Under the pieces are notes generated by a model. That model made no database searches. It was not told the DNA's origin and saw nothing but the letters and a program-made list of their open reading frames with translations. DNA of 64,000 nucleotides from Eubacteriales bacterium OttesenSCG-928-K08 (GTDB lineage Bacteria; Bacillota; Clostridia; Christensenellales; CAG-138). Within the stretch, counting starts at the first letter, position 1. The number at the start of each line of letters is the position of its first letter. The stretch spans positions 1-64,000 of the forward strand of contig JAJDHH010000004.1 of assembly GCA_030266105.1 (NCBI GenBank), given 5' to 3'. Positions 9,365-27,279 of this stretch are shown here, one piece after another. A program made the translations under genes and the position numbers.

Positions 9365-12300
9365 ATGAATAGCAGCAAGAAATCAATGTCAAGCTGGGGG
9401 AAAACAAAAAAAGGCAGGCAGTTTATCTGTCTGGCTCTTGCGTTGCTGCTCGCGGTGGGGGTAAGCATACCCACAATCGCAGAAATTGTAGGAAGCGAGG
9501 AGCCTGTCGAGCCGGTGGGTTCATATGCCGATGGTAGCGAAACGGAAAACCAAAGCTCGCCCGGCGGCACAGACCCAAGCAGCGAGGTTATAACTCCTGA
9601 TCCTGACGAGGAAGAAGAAGAGATAACGGTAATCGTAAATCCGATTGAAAAAGGTGGGCAAACGCAGATTGTTGAAACCCCGCCGGTTTCGCTTGAGCCG
9701 GGTGAAGTTCCCGAAATCGGGGATATGGACGCTATCATGGCGTACACGGGTGCGATGTACCTTAACGATGTGGATCAGGGCCTTGTCGCGGAGTTTGTGA
9801 ATGTCACAACAAACAACGTTGTTGGCGGCATCGGGCAGATGAGGTTATACACAAGCCTGTCGAGCACAAACAACAACGATTATGTAACGGTTAAAGTGGA
9901 TATACCCGATATTCCGGGGATATCTTTTCCGCAATTTGCAACAAGCGATGTAATGCAGATCGCCACACACCAGGGGCGCAACATCGAAATCACGCTGGTG
10001 CGCGGGACAAACGGCAAACCACAGCATTTTGAATATAAGCTTCTTGTTGGCGATACATTCGTTTCGCTAATAAGGGTAATGGTTCCAAACGGCTACAGCA
10101 CAAGCCCAACAGTGGTTACATTTAACGATCCATATATCGACCAAACACGCAGCAACTTCCCGCAGGGCGTGGTAAGTGTGCAGGGTGGTGAACTGACATT
10201 CACAGGCACGTTCGGCTGGAACAATGTAGCAAAGAGTGCAAGCCCCACAAGCGTGTCGGTTGCAGCAAGCAGCACGAGCAGCACGGGGTATGCGTTAAGC
10301 GGCGATATCAGCTACACATTAGGTGCGGCCAACCCGCTGTATGGTTCAACAACAAACACGATATTCACAAAAGAATACACAGCAACGGATGTGCTGACAT
10401 TACCCACAGGGGTCAGCTTCCCGTCGGGCGCAAACGGTGCAACGCTTAATGGCGCCAAAACTGCGCTGACATATGCAGGAAAAACGCTCGCGACATTCTC
10501 CGCGCCTGTTGAAAGCGCGGTGATATCGGGCAAAAAACTGACGGTTGTCTACAAAAACGTAAACAGCACGCTGGATGCAAACGGAAATCAGGCCAGCGGC
10601 AAGGTTGCGGCCGATATTCAATCGATGAACCTGACGACAAAGCTGCATGGGGCAAACCTGGAGGTTTCCTCCAGTTACTCAGGCGTTGCCGGGCAGAAGA
10701 TCACAAACCAGGTGAGCTTTAACGCAAAACCCTGCAAGGGTGATGCTGTTGAGCACAACAGCAGCGCTTCGGCTGAGGTTTCAATCACTGTGCCTCAGGC
10801 TACGTTTACGATCAATAAAACGAACAACCCCGGAAGCTCCACAAAAATCACAAGCACAAACACGGAAATCGAATACACAATAGAGGTCAAAAACACAGGC
10901 CTTGGCACGGAAACGATTACGGTAGCAGACACTGTGCCTACCGGCTCGGTGTATGTTATAGGCTCCGCATCAAGCAATCTGGTGACGCCAACATTCTTTA
11001 ATTCGAACTTAGCCTGGAACAATGTGAGCATAAATGCAGGGCAGACGCTTACATTTAAGTTTAAGGTGCGCTTTGCTCAGGGCACAACAAATGGCACAAC
11101 AATCAGGAACACGGCAAGGTTGATGGGTGGCAGCAAGACATACAACTCCAATACGGTCACAAACACATACGACACAAGCGACAATCTTTCGATTAATAAG
11201 GAACATGGCGTTCCGGGTTCGGTTGTGTATAAGGATAGCATAGTCCCCTACACGATTAAGGTAACAAACTTCAATGCGACCCCCTCGCTGCCCTACAGCG
11301 TTGTGGATACACTTCCTGAGGGCATACGCTTAAGCGCGGCGCAGCTGACGCAGCTTCGCGCGGATTATCCGGGCGTGACATATGATGAAACAACGGGCGT
11401 AATCACATTCCCGGCGGTTTCGTATGCGGCCAACTCATCCGTGACATATTCATTTAACGCCACGGTGGTAAGCTCCATGCCTGACGGCACGTATCTGACC
11501 AACTATGCGCGCATACCAGAGCTTAATCTTTCATCCAGCGCAAGCGTAGTATACCGCACGCGCAAGATTAATATGTCGGTCAACAAGGAAATCGTAAGCG
11601 GGCCAACTCGCGTATCGGAAACCAGCAACGAGGCGGTTTATGAAACGACCTTCCGCATAACTGTTAAAAACGGCAGCGTGCCGCTGGACTTCGATCTTGA
11701 AAATCCGCTCTATTTTGAGGATGTTATGAGCGCGGGCCTGCGGCCAAAGGGCGCTGGCAACGCAGCCTCCGGCACGCTTAGCGGAACGGATAACCGCGGC
11801 CAAACTGTCACCGGTACGTGGACCAGAATAAACGGCTCGGGCTCAGCCTATATCTACACCATAAGGTGGGATATTCCCACACGGCTCGCGGCCAACGAGG
11901 TGTATTGGATACAGTACGTCGGCGAGGTCATCGTGCCGCTCAGGGATGACGGGACATTTGACACCGTAAACGCGTTTAACTATGTAAACGTCAGGGGTGA
12001 CGCAAACGTCACACCCGGCGGCGGTTCAGGCGGCACCGGCGGCTCGGGAACTGAAGTTGAGATCAAGCCCGACATGAGCGTGGAAAAAAAGATAATAAAG
12101 GTCAACAACACAACAGGCTCATGGAAAACATCCGAGCTGTACGCAGGCGATGTAATTACATACCGTCTGACGCTAACCAACACGCAAAACAGCGTCACAA
12201 AGGGATATTTGTACGATATTCTCCCATTCCCGACACCCGGCAGCGGTTTTGTGTGGGAGCTTGACACGAACGTATTTGTAACTGCAACGAACGTTACGCC

Positions 12301-15300
12301 TGTGCTGGCGAGCAACCAGATAATATGGCGCGATTTGGAGATCCCCGCAAATGGTTCTGTTAATGTGGATGTAACGGTTCATTTCCCGCGCGGTGAGTTA
12401 TTCGACACAGCATTTATAGATGCAAACATGCTGGCAGTTAACAACATGCTGTTCCTGCCTGAAAAAACGACAAAGCGCCTTGAGAGTAATGTAACGCACA
12501 CGATTAAGGAAGAAGAGCTTACATTTGGCAAGACGGCCAGCAGGATTTCCATAAACAACTCGGATGAGGCACAATACCAGACCTCTGTGTTTACGCTTAC
12601 CTTCCCCACGATTGCGCATGGCGCAAACGGCGTGATTGTTACGGACGATTTGAGCGAGGTTATCGAAAAGTTTAACGTAACGGCAATCAACTACGGTGCG
12701 TTTGCCGTAACGGACACCAACGGCGCAGCGGCGGGTTATACGCTGGAGCTGACATATAAGGATGGAACGACCAGCACGTTTACTGTTGCGGCGGGCGCAA
12801 GCCCCTCGGTGGTTTACCCTGCGGGTAAGAGCATAACGGATATTGAGAAAATCCGCTGGATATTTGGGGATGTTAACACGCTGACTGCAACAACAGCCCC
12901 CACAATAAGCGTTGCGCTGCAAAACGGTGCGTCCGCAGGGACGGTCACCAACAACATGTATTTGCTGCACAACAACAAAAACGAGCTCCAAACTGTGGAT
13001 ATCAGGGTCAACAACTCTGCAATCCTCATGAAAACGCTTGTTGGCGAGGATGGCGTGCGCATTACAAACTGGAATGGGGATAACCCCGCCCAGGTTGGCG
13101 AATATGTGACCTACCACATCTCATATACGCACAGCAACACACCCACAAACTGGGATGAAACTGTGTCATCCAGGCCGCCGGTAGTGAATGGTGCCACCTG
13201 GACCGATCTGCAAATTGTGGACTATTTGCAGCACCCGGCATTCGGAAAGTACGGCGAAGACATCACAGTCTATGCGAATGTGTACGATGCACAGGGGAAT
13301 CTGGACCCGGTCAGCCCGATCAGTTTTACGTTTGATCTCGACGATGCGGTGATTGATGGCGATAACCGCGTGCTGAATTTGTTCGAAGCGCTCATACAGA
13401 AAGTCTTGGGCAACGGCGGGGGAAGTGTGCGGCCCGGCTCCATTATTGGCGAACAAATTGCGATTCCCGAAGGCATAAAGGTTGAGTTTTCTTACACCTT
13501 GAGGGTTAGCGAGTCGTTTAAAAACTCGGTGCAGGGCTATAGCAACGCAGCCGAAAGAGAAAACGGAAGATACCGCCTGCTGAACAATGTTGAGGTGGGC
13601 TGGGGTGGCACTGATGACTGGCACGTTGCTTCAACCGGGCCTTATGGCCTTACGGACAAAAAGCTTTACATCCACACCCAGCTAAGCGTGGTGGGCACAA
13701 CATACCAGAGCACAAATATAAGCAACTGGAGGAATACGCAGAATACCATAGAGGGCGCGCGCTTTTATGCTACGGGCACACCATACCCCGCTAGCTCATG
13801 GAATGGCGTTGGTAACAACAACTTCCAGTTTACAGGCATGCCCGCGGCGGATGAAACCGAGCAGAAAGTGGCCAACACACTTTATGCTTACTCAACGACC
13901 CGGCACATAATTTACGATTTTACGATCGCAAACTCATATAACTCAGGTCAGGTTATAATGTTTGTGGATCGTGAAGCGTTTGCCTCCATACATTTTTCAA
14001 AAGGCTCGCGTGTTACGGTGTCTAAGTTCCTCTGTAAATTGAGCGAGCTGCCTATTGTGGGAACTGAACCCACAGGAACACAGGATGGCAAGCATTACGT
14101 ATATAACGGTGAAGAGGTTGGCCGGAGATATAATGATGATCCTATCAGCTTGGTGAGGTATGCCAGAAATACCGATCTTATTGACCATGCGGATGAAAAT
14201 GGCGTTTTGTATGAGCACCGAAGGTATCTGGACAATTATCAGAGAATAGCGCAGGAGCATTGGAATAACAACCGCGACATGATTAACTTCTTTGGCATTG
14301 GCGATGCGACAACTAACGTGCTAAAGCCAGGGCAATCGCTCTCATTCATTATGTTCGTTACTCAGGAGTATTATAATCCCTTTAACGGCCATAGCGAGGG
14401 GAGTGAAGAACGTGAAATACCGTTTACAGATATGGAGGCGACGCTTAGGGTCTATCCCCGGAGCATCTATACCAAAGAGCTTTATAATCAGGGGCTATCA
14501 GAAAATTATTATTCGCTTGTGAGCAACCTTAACCCGGTTGAATGGGAGTTTATTGAGGAACCCTTAACTGTGGTGAATACCTTCTCGAACTCGACCGACC
14601 CGTCAGTTTCGAGCAACCCTGCAAACACCGGCAAAGGGGAATGGACAACGGTCCGTTATCCTTCGAGCCTTTCCTCATATCAACGGCCTAAGGGGCTGGT
14701 GACAAATGCGGATCTTATGACATGGGAGCAAAAGGTAACGGTCAAGCGCCCTGAGCAGGAAATCAGCCTGACAAAGCAGGCATCGGGCTTCTACACAAAG
14801 GCCTCGAATTATGGAACATATCAGGCGCTGGATGGATCAAAAACGCCGGATGTGGATGATGCCATCGAGTTTGAGGTGAAAATCACCAACAATGGCAACA
14901 ACAACTTCACCAACTTCTATTTTTCGGAGCAGGTGCCGCTGCCATATGAGGTTCTGTGGATTGAGGCCGGGCTTTCGCGCGATAATAATACCACCACGAA
15001 GATGATTACCGATTTTAGAGATGCTGGCAGCGTAAACATTTATGCTAATAATCTTGATGCATACATTGCCAACACGAAACCATTAAAAGAATACGGAAAA
15101 CTACCGTTGGATGGTTTGTCGGTAGAAGATGCGGATTTGTCAGATGTTGGTTACTACAACACCAATACATATAACGTAACCTACTCGCGTAACAAGGAAC
15201 GTGCGGGTGCGGCAGAGCAAAACTCCTTCAGGGGCGATGTGAGTTCACTTGCAGGCAACACACCGCTTAACACAATTGGCCTGTTTGTGGGGCCAATGGG

Positions 15301-18300
15301 GCTGGGGGATAACTCTCTTAGCCATGATGCAAACCGTGTGGTTTCCGGCAACTATGTGCCGGGTGTTATCAAGCCGGGCGAAACGCTGACAATTAAGGTG
15401 GTTATGGGGCCTGCAAAAGCCGGCAACTTATATAAGCTGGGCGGCCATATACTGACTGTGAGCGATTATGCCGACCAGATTCCTGTAGACTATGCGACAT
15501 ATGACTCAACCTCGTATATCTACCAGCTGACGGATAATTTGATCATCCGCCGCGGCCAGCCTTTGCGTTACTCCGACTATGGCCACGGCAAGCTGCCCAG
15601 TGCGGATGGCCAGATAATCGGCGCGAAGGTAACAGCGCCTGTGACGATTGGCGGCATATTCGCTTCGGTTGCGCAAAAGTCAGTCACATCCTCGGATGGT
15701 GAGCGCACGGCAGTTGGTAACTCCGTGGATAACTCCTTGCAGCTCAAAAACGCAAGTGAGGAGTTCAGCTACGAGCTTAAGGTGACAAACCGTGGTGAGG
15801 TTGTCTTTAGCAACATGGTGCTTATAGACCGCCTGCCAATGATAAACGACGTGGGCGCGGTCAACGTGCAGTCCGATCGTGGATCAGACTTTGCGGTGTC
15901 GTTTGCGGAAAACCCGGATGTTAAGATCGAATGGTCCGCAAACGGCTCAAACGTTTGGAACGTTGTTCCAGGCGCAACAATACAATACAAAAACGTGGCT
16001 GCCGGGCAGGCCTTCAGCACTAATGATTGGTCAACCGTAGCGGGGATCGCCACGGGCTGGAGCGCAACACCCCAGGCAAACAGCAACGCGCTGCGTGTGG
16101 ATACGAACGGATTTGCGCTGCCGATCAACGCAACATTGCGCATAACGTTTAACGCGAAGGTTGCAAACCCCTCCACGCTCAAAGCGGGGCAGATCGCGTG
16201 GAACTCATATGGCTACCGTTACCAGGTGCCGGATAGCTCGCAGCCCGGCGGCACGCGTATGATCGCGGCCGAGCCTGCAAAGGTTGGCGTGCAGCTTGCA
16301 AACGTAAAGCTCAAGATAGATAAAAAGGTGAATGAGCTTGGCAATCCGTTGCAGGGCGCAGTGTTTGGGATCTTCACGGATCTTGCCTGCAACAACGAGG
16401 TCGCAAGGATCACCACCGGCACAAATGGTATCGCAATAAGCTCCAATCTGCCGCTGCAGACCTACTATGTTAAGGAGGTCATCTCCGCGCCGGGTTACAA
16501 ACCGTCGAACACGGTGTACACCGTGCCGGCTTCATCCATGACGCCTGAGGGAACCATCGTTGTAAACACGCAGGGCGACATAGTGAACAGCAAAAAGCCT
16601 GTTAAGCTAACGCTGACAAAGGCGATTGCGGATGGTACGCTCGCGCCCACAAGCAACATTACGATTTCCGTAACAGGTGTGTTTGACGGGCATGATGGCG
16701 TGATGACCCGCTCGCAGACATTTACGCCTGCACAATGTAATGGAAACTATACGTGGACTATAGAAGGCATTATCGTGGGCAACACGTATAAGATTACTGA
16801 AAGCGGCGGCGGGCGCGAATACAACTTCACCGCAGGCGGTGAGGATGTGGATGGCGGCGTTGTGACGGTGGATGCAAACGGCAACTTTACGCTTTCTAAG
16901 GACAGCACGATAGATATCGTTAACAAAACGCCTGAGGCAGGCAAGCTATATCTTAAGAAGGTCGTTAACGGTACGGATGGCGGCGAAACATTCACGATCA
17001 CCGTAACGGGGGTGTTCAGCAACTCGAATGGGCAAAGCGTAACGAGGACGTTTACGTTTAACTCAAGCGAGCGCGACACACCTAAAGAAGTGCCAAACGT
17101 GCTGTATGGCCAGCTTTACACGATCACGGAAACCGTGGGCGGCGAAAACTATGATGTTAGCTACTCGCACACTGTGGTCAACATGAAGCAGCATGATGTG
17201 ACAGTGACAGTCACCAACACGCCAAAAACACCGGGCAAGCTCATAATTAAAAAGACGGTGGACGGCTATGAATACTCTAGCGCAAGCTTCCCTGCAGCAA
17301 GCAAGCTCCATGCGTTTGTGGTGAGCGTAACGGGCATATTCGAAGGCCAGTCGGGCTCGACAACAAAGCAGATCACGCTTAACGCAGGCAATAACTTTGA
17401 GGCGGAGGTGCCGGGAGTAAAGCTGGGCGCTGTCTACCAGGTTGTTGAAACGGGCATACCATCGGGCTATAGCGGCACGCCGACCTACACGGGGCTCAAC
17501 TCAACGGGCATGGTTAATGTTGGCGAAAACGATGTAACGGTGACTGTGAACAACATGAGCAAAAGCTCCGGTGTTGGGCTGGTCGTTAAAAAGACTGTGT
17601 TGGCTAACACCCTTAACATCGCCAAGACATTCCAGTTCGTGCTGTTGGATGCTAACGATAACGAGGTAGCAACGGGCAGCGTAACCACCGCAACCAACGG
17701 CACTGTTGAGTGGAATTACAATGGCGCACAGGTCACAACGCTGACGCTGCAGCCGGGCTATTACTTCATAAAGGAAATAATGGTCAATGAGCCGGACTAT
17801 CAGTTTAACAGGTTTACTGATGACTGGAACAGGGGCACGATGTCCGGCGAGAACACATACAGCATACAGCTCAGGAGCACGGATGCTGCAACCACCGTTA
17901 CAGTAACGGCGGAGAACAAGGTGCGCACCGGCAGTCTCGTGGTTGAGAAGGAAATGCTCACAAGCGCAGGCGCCAGGAATGAAGTGCCTGCGGGCCAGGA
18001 TATCTACTTTGGACTTTACCAATCGGGCACAAGCACAATGGTAGGCACCCCGGTAAAGCTGGTGTGGAATGATGGAGCAAAGGCATACAATAACGTAACG
18101 TTTACCAATGTGCCATATGGCAAATATCAGGTTTACGAGCTGGTGCACAATGGTACGGACTATGTGAGGGCGAACCTTGCATCCTCGGGCTTCCAGTACG
18201 CAGTAAGCGGCGAGGGCCAGGTAATCGAGTTCAACTCGAACAGCCCGGATGGCCCGCTGACGAAGATAACCAACCGCGAGAAAAAGGCGGCGCTGGATAT

Positions 18301-19894
18301 CGATGTGGAAAAGAAGTTCCAGTCGGATGATGATAAGGCGATCCTCGAAAACAAAACGTTTACCGTGCGCTTAAGGCGTGAGGATAACCAGATCATATCC
18401 GGTCAGAGCACGTATGTGGACTTTACGCTGACCAAGAACAACGGCTGGAAGGTCTCTTCAACGGGCGCGATAGAGCTCAAAGAAGGGAACTACATACTCT
18501 ATGAGCTTGGCGAAGTGTCCGGCGGCTGGGAGAACCTGAGCATAACGGGCATAAACGGCGGCACGGTCATGGCAGCGGGAGTAACAGGCGTTACGAACCC
18601 CATAGCGGGCCTCGATAATGGCGTTAGGTATGTTAAGTTCACGGTTGGCTCAACGGAGCTTGGCAGCACGATAAGCTTATCTGTCACGGCGACAAACCGT
18701 GCAACGAGCAAAAAGCTCGCCACATTTAACGTTATAAAGAGCGTGGATGATATAAGCGGGCTTAATGAAACGCAAAGAACGTTTACATTCAACCTATACA
18801 AGGTTGGCAGCCCGGATACGCTGATTGCGACAGGCACGCTTGTTAAGAGCAACACAAGCAGCGAGTCGGTTGTAACGTGGAAGACCCCCGGCGGGGCGGC
18901 ATGGAACAGCGCTGATTATCTATGGGATATAGGCGAGACATACCGTGTGGTGGAAGTTGCCAACAACAACTACACGCTGAAGAACGCGAGCGGCACAAAC
19001 GCAACGCAGTACCGGCCAAACAACGAGTATCTCGCAGGTGTTGACTTTATAATCACCGAGAATACAAATGTTATTAGCCTGCTGTTTGAAAACGTGCGCA
19101 AGGTAGCAAGCGGGATGACGGTCAAAAAGGTTGTTGTGGACAAAAACGGCGTAACGGTGCCTGTGGCAAGCTGGCATGACGACAGCAAGTTTACATTTGG
19201 CATCTACGAGCTGCAGTCGGGCAACATGATAAGCCTTGGCACGCTTATGATAGACAACAGCACGCCGGACCAGACAGTCGCAATAACGGCCAACACGGAG
19301 CTTCGCCCCGGAAACGACTACTACATCCGCGAGTTGACGATTGAACCGCAGGCGGGATACGAGTTTGTAGAGTTTACGAGCCTGACAAAGGAAACCGTAA
19401 ACGGCCAGGATTACTACAAGTTTAAGGCGGCCGACAACCTGCAGATAATCGCAAAGAACAAGCAGCTTGATGTTAAGGGCGACCTGGAGCTGATAATAAC
19501 AAAGAAGCTGTTTGCATCCGATGGAACAACGCCCTATGTTGTCAAGGCAAACGCACAGGAAGGCAAGGGCCATGAAAAGTTTGTGTTTGAGATAACGGAT
19601 AATACGACCGGGCGCGTTTTCCACCAGGTTGTAACGATCAATGCGGGCAGCAGCACAGGCACAGTAAAGGTAACGGGCCTGTATGAAGGCAGCTACACAG
19701 TAAAAGAGCTTGATACCAACTGGCGGTTCAAGCTGATGACGGAAAGATCCATAACGCTGACGGTGACGCAAACTGTAAAAACGTTTGAGTTCAAGAACAA
19801 GTATGTTAATGACCAATGGGTCGATGACAAAATGTCCGTCACCAACAAGCTCGATGGCGATGAGCTGCGGCCAATTCCCGGTAATGTGGCTTGA
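9365..19894 (+). CDS. Giant secreted repeat protein (DUF11-like and Cna-B/prealbumin-like domains)
   Basis: 3509 aa; N-terminal signal peptide (GRQFICLALALLLAVGVSIPTIA); multiple 'INKTNNPGSSTKITSTNTEIEYTIEVKNTG' type segments and C-terminal tandem 'LVVKKTV...VTG' Cna-B-like repeats; ends ...DGDELRPIPGNVA with no LPXTG or C-terminal TM. Confidence 0.85.
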   Translation: MNSSKKSMSSWGKTKKGRQFICLALALLLAVGVSIPTIAEIVGSEEPVEPVGSYADGSETENQSSPGGTDPSSEVITPDPDEEEEEITVIVNPIEKGGQTQIVETPPVSLEPGEVPEIGDMDAIMAYTGAMYLNDVDQGLVAEFVNVTTNNVVGGIGQMRLYTSLSSTNNNDYVTVKVDIPDIPGISFPQFATSDVMQIATHQGRNIEITLVRGTNGKPQHFEYKLLVGDTFVSLIRVMVPNGYSTSPTVVTFNDPYIDQTRSNFPQGVVSVQGGELTFTGTFGWNNVAKSASPTSVSVAASSTSSTGYALSGDISYTLGAANPLYGSTTNTIFTKEYTATDVLTLPTGVSFPSGANGATLNGAKTALTYAGKTLATFSAPVESAVISGKKLTVVYKNVNSTLDANGNQASGKVAADIQSMNLTTKLHGANLEVSSSYSGVAGQKITNQVSFNAKPCKGDAVEHNSSASAEVSITVPQATFTINKTNNPGSSTKITSTNTEIEYTIEVKNTGLGTETITVADTVPTGSVYVIGSASSNLVTPTFFNSNLAWNNVSINAGQTLTFKFKVRFAQGTTNGTTIRNTARLMGGSKTYNSNTVTNTYDTSDNLSINKEHGVPGSVVYKDSIVPYTIKVTNFNATPSLPYSVVDTLPEGIRLSAAQLTQLRADYPGVTYDETTGVITFPAVSYAANSSVTYSFNATVVSSMPDGTYLTNYARIPELNLSSSASVVYRTRKINMSVNKEIVSGPTRVSETSNEAVYETTFRITVKNGSVPLDFDLENPLYFEDVMSAGLRPKGAGNAASGTLSGTDNRGQTVTGTWTRINGSGSAYIYTIRWDIPTRLAANEVYWIQYVGEVIVPLRDDGTFDTVNAFNYVNVRGDANVTPGGGSGGTGGSGTEVEIKPDMSVEKKIIKVNNTTGSWKTSELYAGDVITYRLTLTNTQNSVTKGYLYDILPFPTPGSGFVWELDTNVFVTATNVTPVLASNQIIWRDLEIPANGSVNVDVTVHFPRGELFDTAFIDANMLAVNNMLFLPEKTTKRLESNVTHTIKEEELTFGKTASRISINNSDEAQYQTSVFTLTFPTIAHGANGVIVTDDLSEVIEKFNVTAINYGAFAVTDTNGAAAGYTLELTYKDGTTSTFTVAAGASPSVVYPAGKSITDIEKIRWIFGDVNTLTATTAPTISVALQNGASAGTVTNNMYLLHNNKNELQTVDIRVNNSAILMKTLVGEDGVRITNWNGDNPAQVGEYVTYHISYTHSNTPTNWDETVSSRPPVVNGATWTDLQIVDYLQHPAFGKYGEDITVYANVYDAQGNLDPVSPISFTFDLDDAVIDGDNRVLNLFEALIQKVLGNGGGSVRPGSIIGEQIAIPEGIKVEFSYTLRVSESFKNSVQGYSNAAERENGRYRLLNNVEVGWGGTDDWHVASTGPYGLTDKKLYIHTQLSVVGTTYQSTNISNWRNTQNTIEGARFYATGTPYPASSWNGVGNNNFQFTGMPAADETEQKVANTLYAYSTTRHIIYDFTIANSYNSGQVIMFVDREAFASIHFSKGSRVTVSKFLCKLSELPIVGTEPTGTQDGKHYVYNGEEVGRRYNDDPISLVRYARNTDLIDHADENGVLYEHRRYLDNYQRIAQEHWNNNRDMINFFGIGDATTNVLKPGQSLSFIMFVTQEYYNPFNGHSEGSEEREIPFTDMEATLRVYPRSIYTKELYNQGLSENYYSLVSNLNPVEWEFIEEPLTVVNTFSNSTDPSVSSNPANTGKGEWTTVRYPSSLSSYQRPKGLVTNADLMTWEQKVTVKRPEQEISLTKQASGFYTKASNYGTYQALDGSKTPDVDDAIEFEVKITNNGNNNFTNFYFSEQVPLPYEVLWIEAGLSRDNNTTTKMITDFRDAGSVNIYANNLDAYIANTKPLKEYGKLPLDGLSVEDADLSDVGYYNTNTYNVTYSRNKERAGAAEQNSFRGDVSSLAGNTPLNTIGLFVGPMGLGDNSLSHDANRVVSGNYVPGVIKPGETLTIKVVMGPAKAGNLYKLGGHILTVSDYADQIPVDYATYDSTSYIYQLTDNLIIRRGQPLRYSDYGHGKLPSADGQIIGAKVTAPVTIGGIFASVAQKSVTSSDGERTAVGNSVDNSLQLKNASEEFSYELKVTNRGEVVFSNMVLIDRLPMINDVGAVNVQSDRGSDFAVSFAENPDVKIEWSANGSNVWNVVPGATIQYKNVAAGQAFSTNDWSTVAGIATGWSATPQANSNALRVDTNGFALPINATLRITFNAKVANPSTLKAGQIAWNSYGYRYQVPDSSQPGGTRMIAAEPAKVGVQLANVKLKIDKKVNELGNPLQGAVFGIFTDLACNNEVARITTGTNGIAISSNLPLQTYYVKEVISAPGYKPSNTVYTVPASSMTPEGTIVVNTQGDIVNSKKPVKLTLTKAIADGTLAPTSNITISVTGVFDGHDGVMTRSQTFTPAQCNGNYTWTIEGIIVGNTYKITESGGGREYNFTAGGEDVDGGVVTVDANGNFTLSKDSTIDIVNKTPEAGKLYLKKVVNGTDGGETFTITVTGVFSNSNGQSVTRTFTFNSSERDTPKEVPNVLYGQLYTITETVGGENYDVSYSHTVVNMKQHDVTVTVTNTPKTPGKLIIKKTVDGYEYSSASFPAASKLHAFVVSVTGIFEGQSGSTTKQITLNAGNNFEAEVPGVKLGAVYQVVETGIPSGYSGTPTYTGLNSTGMVNVGENDVTVTVNNMSKSSGVGLVVKKTVLANTLNIAKTFQFVLLDANDNEVATGSVTTATNGTVEWNYNGAQVTTLTLQPGYYFIKEIMVNEPDYQFNRFTDDWNRGTMSGENTYSIQLRSTDAATTVTVTAENKVRTGSLVVEKEMLTSAGARNEVPAGQDIYFGLYQSGTSTMVGTPVKLVWNDGAKAYNNVTFTNVPYGKYQVYELVHNGTDYVRANLASSGFQYAVSGEGQVIEFNSNSPDGPLTKITNREKKAALDIDVEKKFQSDDDKAILENKTFTVRLRREDNQIISGQSTYVDFTLTKNNGWKVSSTGAIELKEGNYILYELGEVSGGWENLSITGINGGTVMAAGVTGVTNPIAGLDNGVRYVKFTVGSTELGSTISLSVTATNRATSKKLATFNVIKSVDDISGLNETQRTFTFNLYKVGSPDTLIATGTLVKSNTSSESVVTWKTPGGAAWNSADYLWDIGETYRVVEVANNNYTLKNASGTNATQYRPNNEYLAGVDFIITENTNVISLLFENVRKVASGMTVKKVVVDKNGVTVPVASWHDDSKFTFGIYELQSGNMISLGTLMIDNSTPDQTVAITANTELRPGNDYYIRELTIEPQAGYEFVEFTSLTKETVNGQDYYKFKAADNLQIIAKNKQLDVKGDLELIITKKLFASDGTTPYVVKANAQEGKGHEKFVFEITDNTTGRVFHQVVTINAGSSTGTVKVTGLYEGSYTVKELDTNWRFKLMTERSITLTVTQTVKTFEFKNKYVNDQWVDDKMSVTNKLDGDELRPIPGNVA

Positions 19895-20531: not shown

Positions 20532-23522
20532 CTACAGCAAATATGAATATTTTTCCTGAACGGCCCAGAGTATCGCTTCGATGTCCTTGGGCAGCCCAAT
20601 CTCGATATCGAGCAGGTTGATTTCACGCACCTCGCCATCGAGCCTTATGCGAATGTGGTTTTCATAATGCACGAGGAAGCCGGAGTTTTCGCTCGCATCC
20701 ATATCCGCCTCGCTGTGGAAAAGCGTAAGCTTTGAGCGGTAGGGCGCATCGTCATATGGGCAGAAAACCGCACAGTTTCCGCATTCGTTGCACATGCGGT
20801 CAATATGGATGATTTGCCTTTGCCCTAAGCCTTCCACCTCAATGGCGATGTTTGCGCGGTTGGGGCAAACCTGCGCGCACACTTCGCAGGATATAGCGCA
20901 GTTAAGGCAGCGCGAGGCTTCGCGCCCGGCGTTTTCATAATCGCCCAGCGTGCCGACATTCTTGCGGCAGGCCTCCGGTTGCGGGTAAGCATTGGGCGGT
21001 ATTGCAAAAGGCATACGCTCGCCGTTTATGCTGTCCGAAACCTTGCGCGCATCGGCAATCGCCTCAACAACTGTTGCGGGGCCTCTGTTTGCATCGCCCA
21101 GCACATATACTCCGGGAATGCCCGTTTCGAGCGTTTGCGGGTTAACGTTTACCTTGCCGTTTTTGCAGTCGATGCCGTTTTGCTCAAAGAAGGCGCAATC
21201 CACACGCTCGCCAACGGCGGCAATAAGCGTATCGCAATCGACAGTTATCTTTTCATCCGTTTCAACGGGGCGGCGGCGGCCGCTTTCATCGGGCGCGCCA
21301 AGCTCCATTTTGCAAAGCGTCAGCTGGCCATCCTTAAGCGATACGGGCGAAACAAGCTCCATAAAGCTCACGCCGTCATTTATCGCAAGCGCCAATTCTT
21401 CGGCGTCTGCAGGCATAAAACGTTTCGTGCGGCGGTATACGATGGATACGCTCTCCACCCCCGGCACGCGTTTAGCTGCGCGCGCGGCATCCATTGCGGT
21501 GTTGCCGCCGCCAACGATGCACACGTTTTTGCCAAGGCTTTCCTGTGTGCCGGCCTTGTAGCGCTCTAAAAACTCGAGCACGGGCATTGCGTTACCTTCC
21601 TCGAGGCGCAGCTGGCCGTGAGACCATGCGCCTGTTGCCAGCAGCACATAATCATAACCCTTTGCCTTTAGCTCGGCAACTGAAGGTGCGGGCGCGCCAA
21701 GCTTAAAGCGCACGCCCATGCGCTCAACAAGCTGCACATCGCGGTCAATCGCGTGGTCGCTTATCCTAAAGCGCGGAATAATGTGGCGCACTACGCCGCC
21801 AAGCTCCTCGCGCTGCTCATATAATGTCACCGGAATACCCTCGCGGCCTAAAAAGAATGCTGCCGCAAGTCCAGCCGGGCCGCCACCAACAACCGCCGCG
21901 CGCTTGCCTGATTTCATCACGGGGGTTTGGGTTTCACCCAGCAGCGCTTCCATGCCGCCGCGCACGGCGTCGGTTTTTGCGTTGCGGATGCGTATGGATT
22001 CCTCATAGTGATCGCGCATGCATTTATCCGCACAGTGGTGGGGGCAAATGCGCCCTGTTATTGAGGGCAGCGGGTTCTTTTCGGTAATCACGCGCATTGC
22101 GTCAAGGTGTTTTCCCTGGCCCACAAGCGCAACATACTCAGGAATATCCTGCCCGATGGGGCAGCCATCCTTACAGGGCGCCGTAAAGCAGTATGTGAGC
22201 GGGAGCTTTTTATCCATCTTGCGCGGGGGAATGGGCTTGATGGGTTTTATGTGGTGGACATCGGTGAGCGCCGATGTTGCCATGCTCTTTACCCGCCCTA
22301 CGCCTACGCCCTCAAACGGGCCAAAATCGTAACCGCGAGTCTTTTCAGCAAGCTGATGGAAGCGGGCGTAACCGCCGGGCTTAAGCGCGGTTGTTGCAAC
22401 GGTGATCGGCCAAATGCCCGCGCCAAAAAGATGCCTTGCGTTAAAAGCATCCACGCCGCCTGCGAAGGATATGCGCATGCGCCCATCAAAAGCGGTGGTG
22501 AAGCGGTTAGCCATTTCGATAGTCAGCGGGTAGAGCGAGCGGCCGCTCATGTACATTTCCTCGCTTGGGAGCTCGCTTGCCTTAACATCAACCGGGAATG
22601 TGTTGGAGAGCTTCAAGCCAAAATCAACATTGGTATCATTCGCAAGCTTCCAAAGCCTCTTGAACATGGGCAGCGCATCCTTAAACTGCAGGTCCTCATT
22701 AAAGTGGCGCTCATCAAAGGCGATGTAATCATAACCCATCTGGTCGAGTATGCTGCGCGCGCTTGTGTAGCCGAGTATTGTGGGGTTGCACTTAACATAT
22801 GTGTGCAGCTTCTTTTCCTCAATGAGGTAGGAGGCGATCTTTTCGATTTCCTGCGGCGGGCAGCCGTGGAGTGTGGAAAGCGTTGCGCTTGAGCAGACAT
22901 TGGGGCTGATGGATTCGATAAACTTTGCGTTAACAAACTCAAAAAGCCGCAGATTGTCGAGCGCCCACTGCTTGCACTCCTTAAATATGGGGGTGTTGGA
23001 GGCATCCTTCATGCCCTCGATAAAGGCATCCACCTTAGGCGAGGTTATGCCCGCGTAATCGTAACCAACGCTCATGTTGAAAACAAAACCATTCTCGCCG
23101 CCAAGCTTAAGCTCGCGCGATAATAGCTTGAGAATAAACCAGGCCTTGACATATTCGTCAAACGCCTGCTGAACGGTCAGCTCTGTGGACCATTCGCAGT
23201 TGTAGCCTTCATCGTCGGTTAGTATGCAGGGCTTGGGCACGCAGGCGGATAGCTCCTCGCCATCCATAATCTGCACGGTTTTAAGCTCAAAAAAGCGTGC
23301 GCCTGCGCAGTATGCCGCCACGATGTTCTGGGCAAGCTGCGTGTGCGGCCCCGCAGCGGGGCCAAATGGGGTTTCGATCTGCTCGTTAAATATCGGCAGA
23401 GCGCGCGCGGGGTCGGCGCAGTAAAAATGCTCAACGCCAAAAACGCTTCCGCTTTCCTGCTGCTCGGTGAGTATCCATTGCATCAGGTTTCCAAAGGGGA
23501 TTGGTGTCATTTTATCAGACAT
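20532..23522 (-). CDS. ygfK: YgfK-like putative selenate reductase/DPD-like Fe-S flavoprotein
   Basis: 996 aa; DPD-like barrel N-terminus, NAD(P)/FAD-binding AVVGGGPAGLAAA, CIVGGGNTAMDAA, C-terminal 4Fe-4S motifs (CAISCEVCAQVCPNR, CNECGNCAVFCP); adjacent ssnA as in E. coli. Confidence 0.85.
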   Translation of the reverse strand: MSDKMTPIPFGNLMQWILTEQQESGSVFGVEHFYCADPARALPIFNEQIETPFGPAAGPHTQLAQNIVAAYCAGARFFELKTVQIMDGEELSACVPKPCILTDDEGYNCEWSTELTVQQAFDEYVKAWFILKLLSRELKLGGENGFVFNMSVGYDYAGITSPKVDAFIEGMKDASNTPIFKECKQWALDNLRLFEFVNAKFIESISPNVCSSATLSTLHGCPPQEIEKIASYLIEEKKLHTYVKCNPTILGYTSARSILDQMGYDYIAFDERHFNEDLQFKDALPMFKRLWKLANDTNVDFGLKLSNTFPVDVKASELPSEEMYMSGRSLYPLTIEMANRFTTAFDGRMRISFAGGVDAFNARHLFGAGIWPITVATTALKPGGYARFHQLAEKTRGYDFGPFEGVGVGRVKSMATSALTDVHHIKPIKPIPPRKMDKKLPLTYCFTAPCKDGCPIGQDIPEYVALVGQGKHLDAMRVITEKNPLPSITGRICPHHCADKCMRDHYEESIRIRNAKTDAVRGGMEALLGETQTPVMKSGKRAAVVGGGPAGLAAAFFLGREGIPVTLYEQREELGGVVRHIIPRFRISDHAIDRDVQLVERMGVRFKLGAPAPSVAELKAKGYDYVLLATGAWSHGQLRLEEGNAMPVLEFLERYKAGTQESLGKNVCIVGGGNTAMDAARAAKRVPGVESVSIVYRRTKRFMPADAEELALAINDGVSFMELVSPVSLKDGQLTLCKMELGAPDESGRRRPVETDEKITVDCDTLIAAVGERVDCAFFEQNGIDCKNGKVNVNPQTLETGIPGVYVLGDANRGPATVVEAIADARKVSDSINGERMPFAIPPNAYPQPEACRKNVGTLGDYENAGREASRCLNCAISCEVCAQVCPNRANIAIEVEGLGQRQIIHIDRMCNECGNCAVFCPYDDAPYRSKLTLFHSEADMDASENSGFLVHYENHIRIRLDGEVREINLLDIEIGLPKDIEAILWAVQEKYSYLL

Positions 23523-23569: not shown

Positions 23570-24898
23570 TCAGGAATTGATATTTTTCCAGAACTTTGTT
23601 GTGACTTCGAGCGTTTTTGCGTTGATTTTTTCTTCATCGCAGCAAACAAGCTCACGATCCTTCATTAGTATTTTACCATTACAAACAGTGTTTGTGCACT
23701 GCTTGCCGCTTAAACCAAACAGAATATGCCCATCCGCATTTTGGTCGCTGAAGGGTGTGTAGGTTTTGTAATCGAACACGGCGATATCCGCCGCGGCGCC
23801 GGGGCGGATCACCCCAAGCTCAACGCCAAACTGGCGTGTGGCGATTTGGCTGTTGCCCTTAAAGAGCATGCTGGTGACTTCATTCCAGCCGACATTTGGC
23901 AGGCAGGCATTGTGCCGCTGAATGCAAAGCGCGACCTTGAGGCTCTCGAGCATATCATGCGTGTAGGCATCGGTGCCAAGGCCAAGCAAAATCCCCTTTG
24001 CGAACATTTGCAGCACGGGCGAGCAGCCAACGGCATTGCCCATGTTGCTTTCGGGATTGTTGACAACCATTGTGCCGGTTTGCTTCAAAAGCTCCATTTC
24101 AGCATCGTTTACATGGATGCAATGCCCGGCGATCGTGTCCTCGCCCAATATGCCCATGTCGTGCAGGCGGAAAACCGTGCGCTTGCCATAAGCCTTTAGC
24201 GCGTCGTAAACATCGGCCATGCCTTCTGCAATGTGGATGTGATAACCCACGCCCGGGTTTTCCTGCTGGCATAGCTCAAGGGTTTTGTTTGAGAGTGTAA
24301 ATGAGGCGTGCAGGCCAAACATGGCTTTGACCATGCTGTCGTTTTGCTTTTGTGTGTGGCGGATAAAGTCGGCGTTTTCGCGGATCGCCTCGTTGCATTG
24401 CGCCTCGCCGTTGCGGTCGGAAACCTCATAACAAAGGCTTGTGCGGATCGAAAGCTCACGCGCCACTTCATCAATTGCAAAAAGGCTGCCGGGCGTTTGC
24501 CCATAGCTTGCGTGATGATCGAAAACCGTGGTTACGCCGTTTTTAATGCTGTCGATGTAGGTTTGGTAGGCGCTGTAGCGCGAGCCCTCCACATCAAGCT
24601 GCTTATCGATCTTCCACCACTGGCCATCGAGCACCTCAAGGAAGTTGCTTGGGTTAAAGCCGTTGATGGAAAGCCCGCGCGCAAACGCGCTATATATGTG
24701 GCTGTGCGCGTTTATCAGCCCCGGCATAATCAGGCCGCCCTTTGCGTCGATCCACTCAGCATCCTTATAGCGTTCCTTGAGCGAGGCCGTGCTGCCGACC
24801 TCTTTAACTGTTGAGCCCTCGCATAAAACTGCGCCATTTTCGATGAAAGGCGTTTTAGGGTCCCGTGTGAGCAGCTTGCCGTTGCCAATCAGAAGCAT
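23570..24898 (-). CDS. ssnA: SsnA-type putative aminohydrolase
   Basis: 442 aa amidohydrolase; GLINAHSHIYSAFARG, HIHIAEG, GLGTDAYTHDM; upstream of ygfK. Confidence 0.88.
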   Translation of the reverse strand: MLLIGNGKLLTRDPKTPFIENGAVLCEGSTVKEVGSTASLKERYKDAEWIDAKGGLIMPGLINAHSHIYSAFARGLSINGFNPSNFLEVLDGQWWKIDKQLDVEGSRYSAYQTYIDSIKNGVTTVFDHHASYGQTPGSLFAIDEVARELSIRTSLCYEVSDRNGEAQCNEAIRENADFIRHTQKQNDSMVKAMFGLHASFTLSNKTLELCQQENPGVGYHIHIAEGMADVYDALKAYGKRTVFRLHDMGILGEDTIAGHCIHVNDAEMELLKQTGTMVVNNPESNMGNAVGCSPVLQMFAKGILLGLGTDAYTHDMLESLKVALCIQRHNACLPNVGWNEVTSMLFKGNSQIATRQFGVELGVIRPGAAADIAVFDYKTYTPFSDQNADGHILFGLSGKQCTNTVCNGKILMKDRELVCCDEEKINAKTLEVTTKFWKNINS

Positions 24899-25118
24899 GT
24901 TAAAAATCCTCCCTTGTACATGTGGTGAATAGTAGTAGTATGTTCCGCTGAAAACTTTAATAAAGAAAAATGAGCATTCCCATCGGTTATGGTTCCGATT
25001 TGGGAAACACTCATCGCAAATCCTCTTTGGGAGAAGCTTGAGTGATAGTTACAGCCCGCGCGCATGGCACTTCCTTGCAGCTATCAGTCAATGAATTTGG
25101 TTGTTGAAAGCTCTTTTC
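24899..25118 (-). promoter_or_regulatory. Candidate structured cis-regulatory leader RNA of ssnA-ygfK
   Basis: ~220-nt leader containing P1 stem (25043-25048/25081-25086), antiterminator pairing (25008-25013/25039-25044) and terminator (24961-25012) that are mutually exclusive. Confidence 0.65.
24961..25012 (-). terminator. Intrinsic terminator inside ssnA 5' leader
   Basis: Minus strand: gagtgtttcccaaatcgg-aaccataa-ccgatgggaatgctc then atttttcttta, located between promoter and ssnA start. Confidence 0.7.
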
Positions 25119-25124
25119 GATGCT

Positions 25125-25153
25125 ATTATAACATAGTGAGGGCCCATCCACAA
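25125..25153 (-). promoter_or_regulatory. Sigma-A-like promoter of ssnA leader
   Basis: Minus strand TTGTGG (25148-25153), 17 nt, TATAAT (25125-25130). Confidence 0.6.
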
Positions 25154-25199: not shown

Positions 25200-25655
25200 A
25201 TGTTTGCATCGGAATTTTCATTGGGGCCTGGCGGCGCAAAGGATGCGCTATATATACGCAGGCTTGTTTTTGTGGATGAGCTTGGCCTTGACGAGCAGTT
25301 TGTGTTTGACGATAAGGATGCGTTTTGCGCGCACCTGACTGTGAGGATGGATGGCGAGCCCATCGCTTCGGGCAGGATGGCCTCAAACGAGCGCGGCGTC
25401 AATATCGAATTTATTTGCGTGAAAAAAGACTTTCGCGGCCAGGGTTTTGGCGACATGTGCCTGAGGACGATGCTCAACAAGGCGCAAAGCATGGGCGCAA
25501 CAAACGCATATGTCCATGTGCCTGAGCGTTACAAGGCCTATTACGAGGCGTTTGGCTTCCGTGAATTTGGGCGCGGGCAAAATGAATATGTGAATATGGT
25601 TGTGGAGACCGCGCATGTGGATTGGCACCCGAATTGCGGCGGGCACGGGGGATAA
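25200..25655 (+). CDS. GNAT-family N-acetyltransferase
   Basis: 151 aa; VDELGLDEQFVFDDKDAFCAHLTVRMDGEPIASGRM..., KKDFRGQGFGDMCLRTML acetyl-CoA loop. Confidence 0.85.
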   Translation: MFASEFSLGPGGAKDALYIRRLVFVDELGLDEQFVFDDKDAFCAHLTVRMDGEPIASGRMASNERGVNIEFICVKKDFRGQGFGDMCLRTMLNKAQSMGATNAYVHVPERYKAYYEAFGFREFGRGQNEYVNMVVETAHVDWHPNCGGHGG

Positions 25656-25735: not shown

Positions 25736-26413
25736 GTGAAACAATCAAAGCAGTTTTTAATATTTTGCCGCCCGCTTATTTGGGCGCTCATTCTTTTGCT
25801 TTTTGCGGCGGGTCTTTGCGGCTGCCTGCGGCAAAATGAAATTGTGCCTGAGCCAACTATAACACCGCAGCTAACGCCGGTGACGCCTGCGCCCACGCCT
25901 GAGCCCACCCCGTTAGCAAGGGTGATTAGCGAGGTGCCGATTTCTTTTTTAAGAACCTACCCCGTTAAGATTATGTTTCCGGGTTATGGTGTTGAGAGTG
26001 AGCTTTTGCCCATGGGGGTGGATTATGAAAACGCCATCGACACCCCGGACGATGCGCTTGTCGCGGGCTGGTTCTGCTATTTTTCAGCGCCCGATGAGGA
26101 GGGCAACTGCATAATGAACGGGCACGACCGCTGGAAGGGCGTGGATGGCCACTTTGCCGTGCTCAAAAAAATGGCCGTGGGCGATGAGGTGCAGGTGCTT
26201 TTAGAGGATGGGCGTTTGGTGCGCTACGAGGTGGAGGTTCTTGAAGAATACCGCGTGGATGATCACCCTGAGGAGCTTGTGGCGCGCGGCGGCGAAACGC
26301 GGCTCACGCTTATCACCTGCAAGGGTGATTATGATGTGCTGCTTGGCACATCAAGAACGCGGGTTGTGGCGGTGTGCAGGCGCACGGGCATAGATGAGGC
26401 GGCAAATGGCTGA
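25736..26413 (+). CDS. Sortase with lipobox-like N-terminus
   Basis: 225 aa; NGHDRWKG..., LTLITCKG, TSRTRVVAVCRR (His/Cys/Arg triad); N-terminal LLLFAAGLCGC and TP-rich linker. Confidence 0.8.
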   Translation: MKQSKQFLIFCRPLIWALILLLFAAGLCGCLRQNEIVPEPTITPQLTPVTPAPTPEPTPLARVISEVPISFLRTYPVKIMFPGYGVESELLPMGVDYENAIDTPDDALVAGWFCYFSAPDEEGNCIMNGHDRWKGVDGHFAVLKKMAVGDEVQVLLEDGRLVRYEVEVLEEYRVDDHPEELVARGGETRLTLITCKGDYDVLLGTSRTRVVAVCRRTGIDEAANG

Positions 26414-26490
26414 TGTGATTGTGTTTACGCTTTGCTAAAGCAGGTTAATAAAGTAAGAGAGGCCCAAAATATAGTTTAAGGAAAAGGAAA

Positions 26491-27279
26491 TTGAGTCAGG
26501 TGCAAACGGCGGCAAAGCTGCCGGCGGAAAAAAAGCATAAAGGCAAAAATTGGTATAAACTGACCCGGGTGCTCTGGGTTGTTAACTATGCTTTGATGGT
26601 TGTGACGCTCGTTGTTGCATCCCTTATAATGGTGCGCCAGAACACCATCCCCAAGGATATTGAGTATGTCGCGCCGCCATCAAAAGTGCAGGCGCCAACG
26701 CTGCCCGGTGAGGATGGGGAGCCGCCAAACCCCTTCCTTGCGATGCTCCCGCCATTGGATAAAGAATACGATAAGGATAAACCCATTGGCACGCTACTGT
26801 TCATCGGCTCGCAGCAGGCGAGCGAGGTTTATCCTGTAGATATTAAACGCAACGGAACGATAGGAACAATGCCCTCAGCGACAAAATCCGCATGGTATGA
26901 AAAGAGCGCCTTCCCCGGGCAGGCGGGCAATTGCGTTATGAACGGGCATGTGAGCTACAAAAAGCAAAAGGGCATTTTCTCATACCTGAAGCAGATTGAG
27001 GTTGGCGAGGAAATTGTTTTCCACAGCCTTATTGAAGGTTACGACTATTATGTTTATTATGAGGTGGAGAGCGTTGAGGAGCACCCATACAACGACTATC
27101 CCGCACAGCTTATCGCGCTTGGCGGGGAGGACAGGCTCACGCTGATCACATGCCTGGGCGATTTTAACCGCAGGATCGGCACATCCGAAACCCGCGTTGT
27201 GGCGATTTGCAGGCCAATCGCCAGCTTTAACGCAAATGAGAGCGCGGATGCGGCTTTTGCTCAGGAGTCGGAAGCTTAA
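26491..27279 (+). CDS. Sortase (TM-anchored), paralogue of the preceding gene
   Basis: 262 aa, TTG start; TM helix; CVMNGHVSYKKQKG, LTLITCLGD, TSETRVVAICRP. Confidence 0.83.
   Translation: MSQVQTAAKLPAEKKHKGKNWYKLTRVLWVVNYALMVVTLVVASLIMVRQNTIPKDIEYVAPPSKVQAPTLPGEDGEPPNPFLAMLPPLDKEYDKDKPIGTLLFIGSQQASEVYPVDIKRNGTIGTMPSATKSAWYEKSAFPGQAGNCVMNGHVSYKKQKGIFSYLKQIEVGEEIVFHSLIEGYDYYVYYEVESVEEHPYNDYPAQLIALGGEDRLTLITCLGDFNRRIGTSETRVVAICRPIASFNANESADAAFAQESEA

Follow-up and report, generated by a model that had tools for sequence, protein, structure and literature searches.

The leader of ssnA-ygfK in a Christensenellales genome: a candidate transcriptional ON riboswitch of the ssnA RNA class

How would a bacterium that breaks down urate reductively sense that there is something to break down? 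The question is raised by a leader (24899-25153, minus strand) that, in the 64-kb stretch of DNA analysed here (the window), separates the ssnA-ygfK genes from a GNAT acetyltransferase gene on the plus strand (25200-25655). Our preferred reading, held with moderate confidence, is that this leader acts on transcription as a riboswitch of the ssnA class, one that would turn ssnA-ygfK ON and whose ligand is most likely an oxidised purine from the point where reductive urate breakdown begins.

The genes downstream are clear in their identity. The first, ssnA (23570-24898, minus strand), encodes a 442-aa aminohydrolase, SsnA, that scores above the curated cut-offs of both NF005540 (643 bits) and TIGR03314 (581 bits), and its ribosome-binding site is AAGGGAGGA (24907-24915, minus strand). 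Directly 3' of it, ygfK (20532-23522, minus strand) encodes the 996-aa flavin/Fe-S reductase YgfK (TIGR03315, 1363 bits, above the curated cut-off). When the same genome was searched by family, it was found also to encode a TIGR03311 xanthine dehydrogenase and a diaminopropionate ammonia-lyase. The urate genes are flanked on one side by the gene for a surface protein of 3509 aa (9365-19894), which has SpaA and DUF11 domains, and on the opposite side by two sortase genes (25736-27279). Viral contigs, in which a relative of SsnA was looked for, yielded none.

Membership and distribution of the ssnA RNA

The minus strand from 25043 to 25090 matches the ssnA RNA (Rfam RF03031) along its full length, model positions 1-48 of 48, at 54.6 bits (E = 2.7e-12; gathering threshold 37.3), and this is the sole gathering-level Rfam match within the window. 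The consensus stems 8-12/35-39 and 21-24/30-33 can both form, the alignment flags no non-standard pair, and the 3' end of the motif (25043) lies 145 nt upstream of the ssnA start codon (24898). The Xanthine-I (NMT1), purine and Moco/Tuco families gave no match at the locus, either in a scan of the window at gathering thresholds or in a permissive scan of the leader, and the latter returned no relevant family besides RF03031. A reading of the sequence alone had mentioned an ssnA-associated candidate RNA motif, and had proposed that the leader be compared with ssnA-named, purine or xanthine, and Moco/Tuco models; the motif does exist, and the window copy is an above-threshold member of it. The ssnA RNA is reportedly among the candidate RNAs of Weinberg et al. 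2017. Judged by its sequence, the window leader genuinely belongs to a known family of orphan riboswitch candidates, with which it shares both a full-length, above-cut-off match and the downstream gene; in addition to what the Rfam model describes, it has a platform of P1, antiterminator and terminator that lies mostly outside that model.

The literature that we searched reports no ligand for RF03031. Nor did we find a publication on its function, but since the scope of this search did not take in the 2017 discovery paper, we do not assert that the ON assignment made below is new.

The assembly of the window genome, which is 59% complete, holds one copy of RF03031. Of the 103 genomes of the window's family, 28 carry the RNA; the figures are 10 of 297 for its order (nine of these ten within the window's family) and 78 of 301 for the family around an Intestinimonas genome (G750), and elsewhere in the phylum the RNA is scarcely present. 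When 84,980 species genomes were scanned with a pattern, at least 119 loci matched; among the matches listed, these fall mostly in Oscillospiraceae, Flavonifractor, Intestinimonas, Gemmiger and Oscillibacter. Sixteen pattern matches, mostly in unrelated genomes (e.g., L035, L040, L041, L114), were dropped as chance, leaving 138 copies from all searches, nearly all of them upstream of ssnA, and weak matches at order, class and phylum level (L029-L034, L244, L245; 23-26 bits) were omitted as likely chance. Conservation of the leader upstream of ssnA in relatives, on which the sequence-only reading had staked its proposal, was thus found in many of them. Across the 103 family genomes, an ssnA-like gene is present in 78 and the RNA in 28; two whole genera (g22, g24) have ssnA without the RNA, and must either control it by other means or carry a variant that the model misses.

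Conserved core and competing folds

Transcription of the leader is expected to start near 25115-25118, downstream of a putative promoter whose -10 box (TATAAT, 25125-25130) is perfect and whose -35 box (TTGTGG, 25148-25153) is weak, agreeing with TTGACA at 3 of 6 positions, with a spacer of 17 as first read from the minus strand. A strict consensus scan of the leader called neither a promoter nor a terminator. Relatives are enriched in -10 boxes ahead of the core: 114 of 137 have one, against 62 in shuffles, and 44 have one accompanied by a -35 box, against 9.

Of 200 shuffles, 196 fold less well than the leader as a whole (z = -2.2), and the pieces from which a switch could be built were located on the minus strand as the sequence-only reading had described them. 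An intrinsic terminator hairpin, AUGAGUGUUUCCC...GGGAAUGCUCAU (24970-25014; about -19 kcal/mol alone), is followed by the U-rich tract UUUUUCUUUAUU (24959-24970). The antiterminator pairs CACUCA (25039-25044) with UGAGUG (25008-25013), and its 3' arm lies wholly within the 5' arm of the terminator. The helix named P1 in that reading, UGAUAG (25081-25086) with CUAUCA (25043-25048), is also present, and the last two nucleotides of its 3' strand (25044-25043), but no more, are shared with the antiterminator. What did not stand is the place given to P1: this helix does not belong to the core that the family conserves, with which it competes.

That core (25052-25083, minus strand), which is the predicted ligand-binding, or ON, fold, consists of a 5-bp helix P2 (25083-25079 with 25056-25052), a conserved 8-nt internal loop (25078-25071) and a 4-bp helix P3 (25070-25067 with 25061-25058), plus G25057. 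Among the matches listed, the 5-bp and 4-bp helices are common to 138 relatives from Christensenellales- and Oscillospiraceae-type genomes. Pair 9-38 is formed in all 95 distinct sequences, by five pair types, and in all 81 sequences of the covariation set, as A-U, G-U, G-C, U-A or U-G. In the covariation set the core pairs show 17 changes on both sides, against 4.7 in shuffles, with none of 500 shuffles reaching 17; and 96% of cells are paired, falling to at most 56% when partners are slid by up to three columns. The search pattern fixed many core positions, so that invariance there is partly imposed, but positions 7-9 and 38-40 lay outside the pattern. The internal loop is invariant at G13, A15, A16, G18 and A20, positions that the pattern partly fixed. 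The otherwise invariant pair G10-C37 is A-U in a tandem copy from Gemmiger, which the pattern had missed and the covariance model detected.

In the window, an ATG in the loop of P3 (CAUGC) opens a frame that runs through the leader, and could suggest attenuation by a leader peptide, in which a short reading frame starting inside the motif governs termination. We rejected this attenuator, which is highly improbable: there is no conserved short reading frame, and the start codon sits in a loop that varies, most relatives having UUCGC or other loops without ATG between flanking structures that are conserved.

Positions 8-10 can pair either with 37-39, in the core, or with 43-45, in P1. In an equilibrium energy model, which leaves out kinetics, Mg2+ and tertiary contacts, the unconstrained window RNA forms P1 with probability 0.99, the terminator with 0.895 and the antiterminator with 0.03; with the core imposed, P1 falls to 0.001 and the terminator to 0.008 while the antiterminator rises to 0.96; and with P1 imposed, the terminator stands at 0.92 and the antiterminator at 0.005. 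Within this energy model, the aptamer and terminator folds are mutually exclusive in the window and its relatives, which bears out the exclusion among P1, antiterminator and terminator that had been read from their shared nucleotides.

The same test extends to other leaders. Across 65 of the same layout, imposing the core lowers the mean terminator probability from 0.58 to 0.37, whereas with a shuffled linker it does not change (0.72, 0.72). A decrease of over 0.3 is seen in 23 leaders, and an increase of over 0.1 in two. These figures come from a different base-pair measure, on which the window value goes from 0.59 to 0.01. In some leaders of this layout (L002, L003 and L107), the full-length terminator is still favoured with the core imposed: L002 and L003 switch in a truncated transcript only, and in L107 the antiterminator forms early even when no core is imposed. 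Because the core fold releases the antiterminator, the predicted logic is that ligand means ON; and because P1 competes with the core and is absent from many relatives, it is, according to the folding model, the OFF-state helix and not part of the family core.

Other terminators and the direction of switching

If P1 were instead the ligand-stabilised closing helix of the aptamer, the direction would be reversed, and ligand would bring about termination. Such an OFF riboswitch is suggested by L107-type leaders, where the antiterminator (CACCUAUCA/UGAUAGGUG) has six nucleotides in common with P1 (GAAUGAUAG/CUAUCAUUC), a classic OFF layout; moreover, when P1 and the inner core were imposed together, terminator probabilities of 0.82-0.996 resulted in the six leaders tested. 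We nonetheless consider this reading unlikely. Many relatives keep the core intact yet lack P1, and the helix takes up positions 8-10, whose covariation is with 37-39. An OFF switch on a degradative pathway would also require an unusual signal.

Direction can also be read from terminators that consume the core, which allow ON only. In many relatives that lack P1, the 5' arm of the terminator is the core's own 3' strand, as in GCGCGGGC...GCCCGCGC followed by a U-tract. Terminators of this kind, at or below -16 kcal/mol, occur in 29 of 69 other leaders, against 3.95 in shuffles (maximum 6). The core's 5' strand (GCUGUAAC or CUGUAAC) serves as the terminator arm in the two units of the Gemmiger tandem and in leaders before nfnAB (L085, L201), and the three examples that were folded gave z of -2.9, -6.9 and -4.2. 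A rough sort of the 138 leaders, for which the 3'-strand list was curated by eye, gave 73 with P1 and antiterminator, 32 with a 3'-strand terminator, 4 with a 5'-strand terminator and 29 that fit none of these three. In the 3'- and 5'-strand leaders the formed core excludes the terminator, so that a ligand bound to the core can only mean ON; and since these leaders and the window share the ancestry of the core, the same sign is expected for the window, with which the window's own modelled fold agrees. All of the architectures, as modelled, suggest a transcriptional ON switch.

The ON riboswitch that we prefer would then work as follows. With no ligand, the decoy hairpin (UGAUAG/CUAUCA and its inner pairs) would pull the conserved core apart and tie up the 5' arm of the antiterminator, allowing the terminator to form. 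Ligand bound directly to the core (P2, the 8-nt internal loop and P3) would break the decoy and free CUAUCACUCA; the freed strand would form the antiterminator CACUCA/UGAGUG, and polymerase would enter ssnA-ygfK.

Two Gemmiger leaders carry two complete ssnA RNA units in series before ssnA (Gemmiger sp. An87, G754, L235:7121-7318; Gemmiger sp. An194, L092). Each unit has its own terminator consuming the 5' strand of its core, the A10-U37 pair being in the upstream unit, and the arrangement is expected to sharpen the response. Tandem pseudo-cooperative riboswitches are likewise built of two aptamer-terminator units in series, and ssnA is absent from the main text of the survey that describes them (PMC9481103).

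Regulon and candidate ligands

To name a signal, we turn to the genes that the RNA precedes. One Intestinimonas genome (G749) has three copies, before the ssnA operon, hyuA and nfnAB-like genes. Its ssnA operon comprises ssnA, ygfK and genes for a YczE-like membrane protein, a selenium-dependent xanthine dehydrogenase and diaminopropionate ammonia-lyase, with ygeY and ygeW, and adjoins an NCS2 xanthine-type permease and a divergent YheO-like regulator; the product of the hyuA behind the second copy (L058) belongs to the D-hydantoinase family. The ssnA and nfnAB copies are seen again in G750 (the nfnAB-like copies being L201 in G749 and L085 in G750), and in the genomes with these extra copies the ssnA operon, with ygfK, xanthine dehydrogenase, ygeX, ygeY and ygeW, lies beside an NCS2 xanthine-type permease. 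A further copy (L134, L238:1485-1841, in G751) precedes a short frame that looks like the remnant of a deletion, in which the beginning of a YczE-like gene runs into the last part of a short-chain dehydrogenase.

In the reductive pathway, urate is converted to yanthine by XdhD and yanthine to ureidomethyl-hydantoin by YgfK and SsnA, after which HyuA, YgeW, YgeY and YgeX act (PMC12507026). Redox and membrane proteins aside, the enzymes linked to the RNA make up this pathway, and the positions of the copies suggest that they mark a urate-catabolism regulon. Published RNA-seq reports that urate induces ssnA and ygfK in gut bacteria in general, none of them known to carry the ssnA RNA, and the induction reported could act through a protein regulator instead.

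A protein might also act on the RNA itself, the core being the site of a regulator, such as an antiterminator protein, and not a small-molecule aptamer. The small size of the core would suit such a site, and a gene for a YheO-like regulator, with PAS_6 and HTH domains, adjoins several ssnA loci, yet these domains suggest binding to DNA. Copies of RF03031 stand at separate loci, before hyuA and nfnAB, and the window ssnA has no adjoining YheO-like gene; the 8-nt internal loop, invariant at five positions that the search pattern partly fixed, is typical of an aptamer, though compatible with a protein site. We rate protein-responsive antitermination as improbable, if anything slightly more so than the OFF switch. 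At three loci upstream of ssnA (L089, L097 and L090, the last from Flavonifractor plautii), the divergent YheO-like PAS/HTH regulator and the NCS2 xanthine-type permease adjoin the RNA-controlled operon, which may there be under both protein and RNA control.

Taking the core as an aptamer, as we prefer, the regulon narrows the choice of ligand: since ssnA and hyuA share the reductive urate pathway, with nfnAB a plausible supplier of reductant, uric acid, xanthine and 2,8-dioxopurine (yanthine) are the first candidates, and the ligand is probably one of them. To our knowledge, neither hyuA nor nfnAB needs molybdenum or selenium. For that reason, and because no Moco/Tuco model matches, sensing of either element fits poorly. 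The signal for the ON switch could instead be no early purine intermediate but, for example, a late product, a nucleotide or a redox metabolite; one copy does precede nfnAB, a redox enzyme, but ssnA and hyuA are steps of one pathway and genes of the ssnA type are reported to be urate-induced, and we place this reading at the low end of the unlikely ones.

Known riboswitches offer partial parallels. Xanthine-I (NMT1) senses xanthine and uric acid, and the window RNA, lying near purine-degradation genes, is predicted to sense oxidised purines related to these; but NMT1, a hairpin with a bulge inside it, switches genes OFF, probably at translation (PMC7373994), whereas the window RNA is predicted to act ON and on transcription. 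The xanthine-sensing variants of the guanine class are likewise purine sensors tied to purine metabolism, though the window locus has no guanine-class match (PMC9295807).

What the analysis would add to the known family is an ON sign, a regulon, a short list of ligands and the reassignment of P1 to the OFF state. Chemistry published in 2025 is what yields the list of candidates, and it makes an orphan class directly testable; the comparative evidence predicts ON and singles out leaders whose termination has to be lost on binding. More specifically, though we think it doubtful, in nature the ssnA class may be an ON riboswitch that senses yanthine, or else some other intermediate peculiar to the reductive breakdown of urate. 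We know of no riboswitch described for 2,8-dioxopurine or for such an intermediate. A positive result with any of these ligands would also provide a biosensor for urate or yanthine. Urate-degrading gut bacteria affect the urate levels of their hosts, and the regulation of the pathway has been described as poorly understood (PMC12507026). If a yanthine-type ON switch proved true, urate breakdown, ring opening and the supply of reductant would be coordinated across gut Clostridia.
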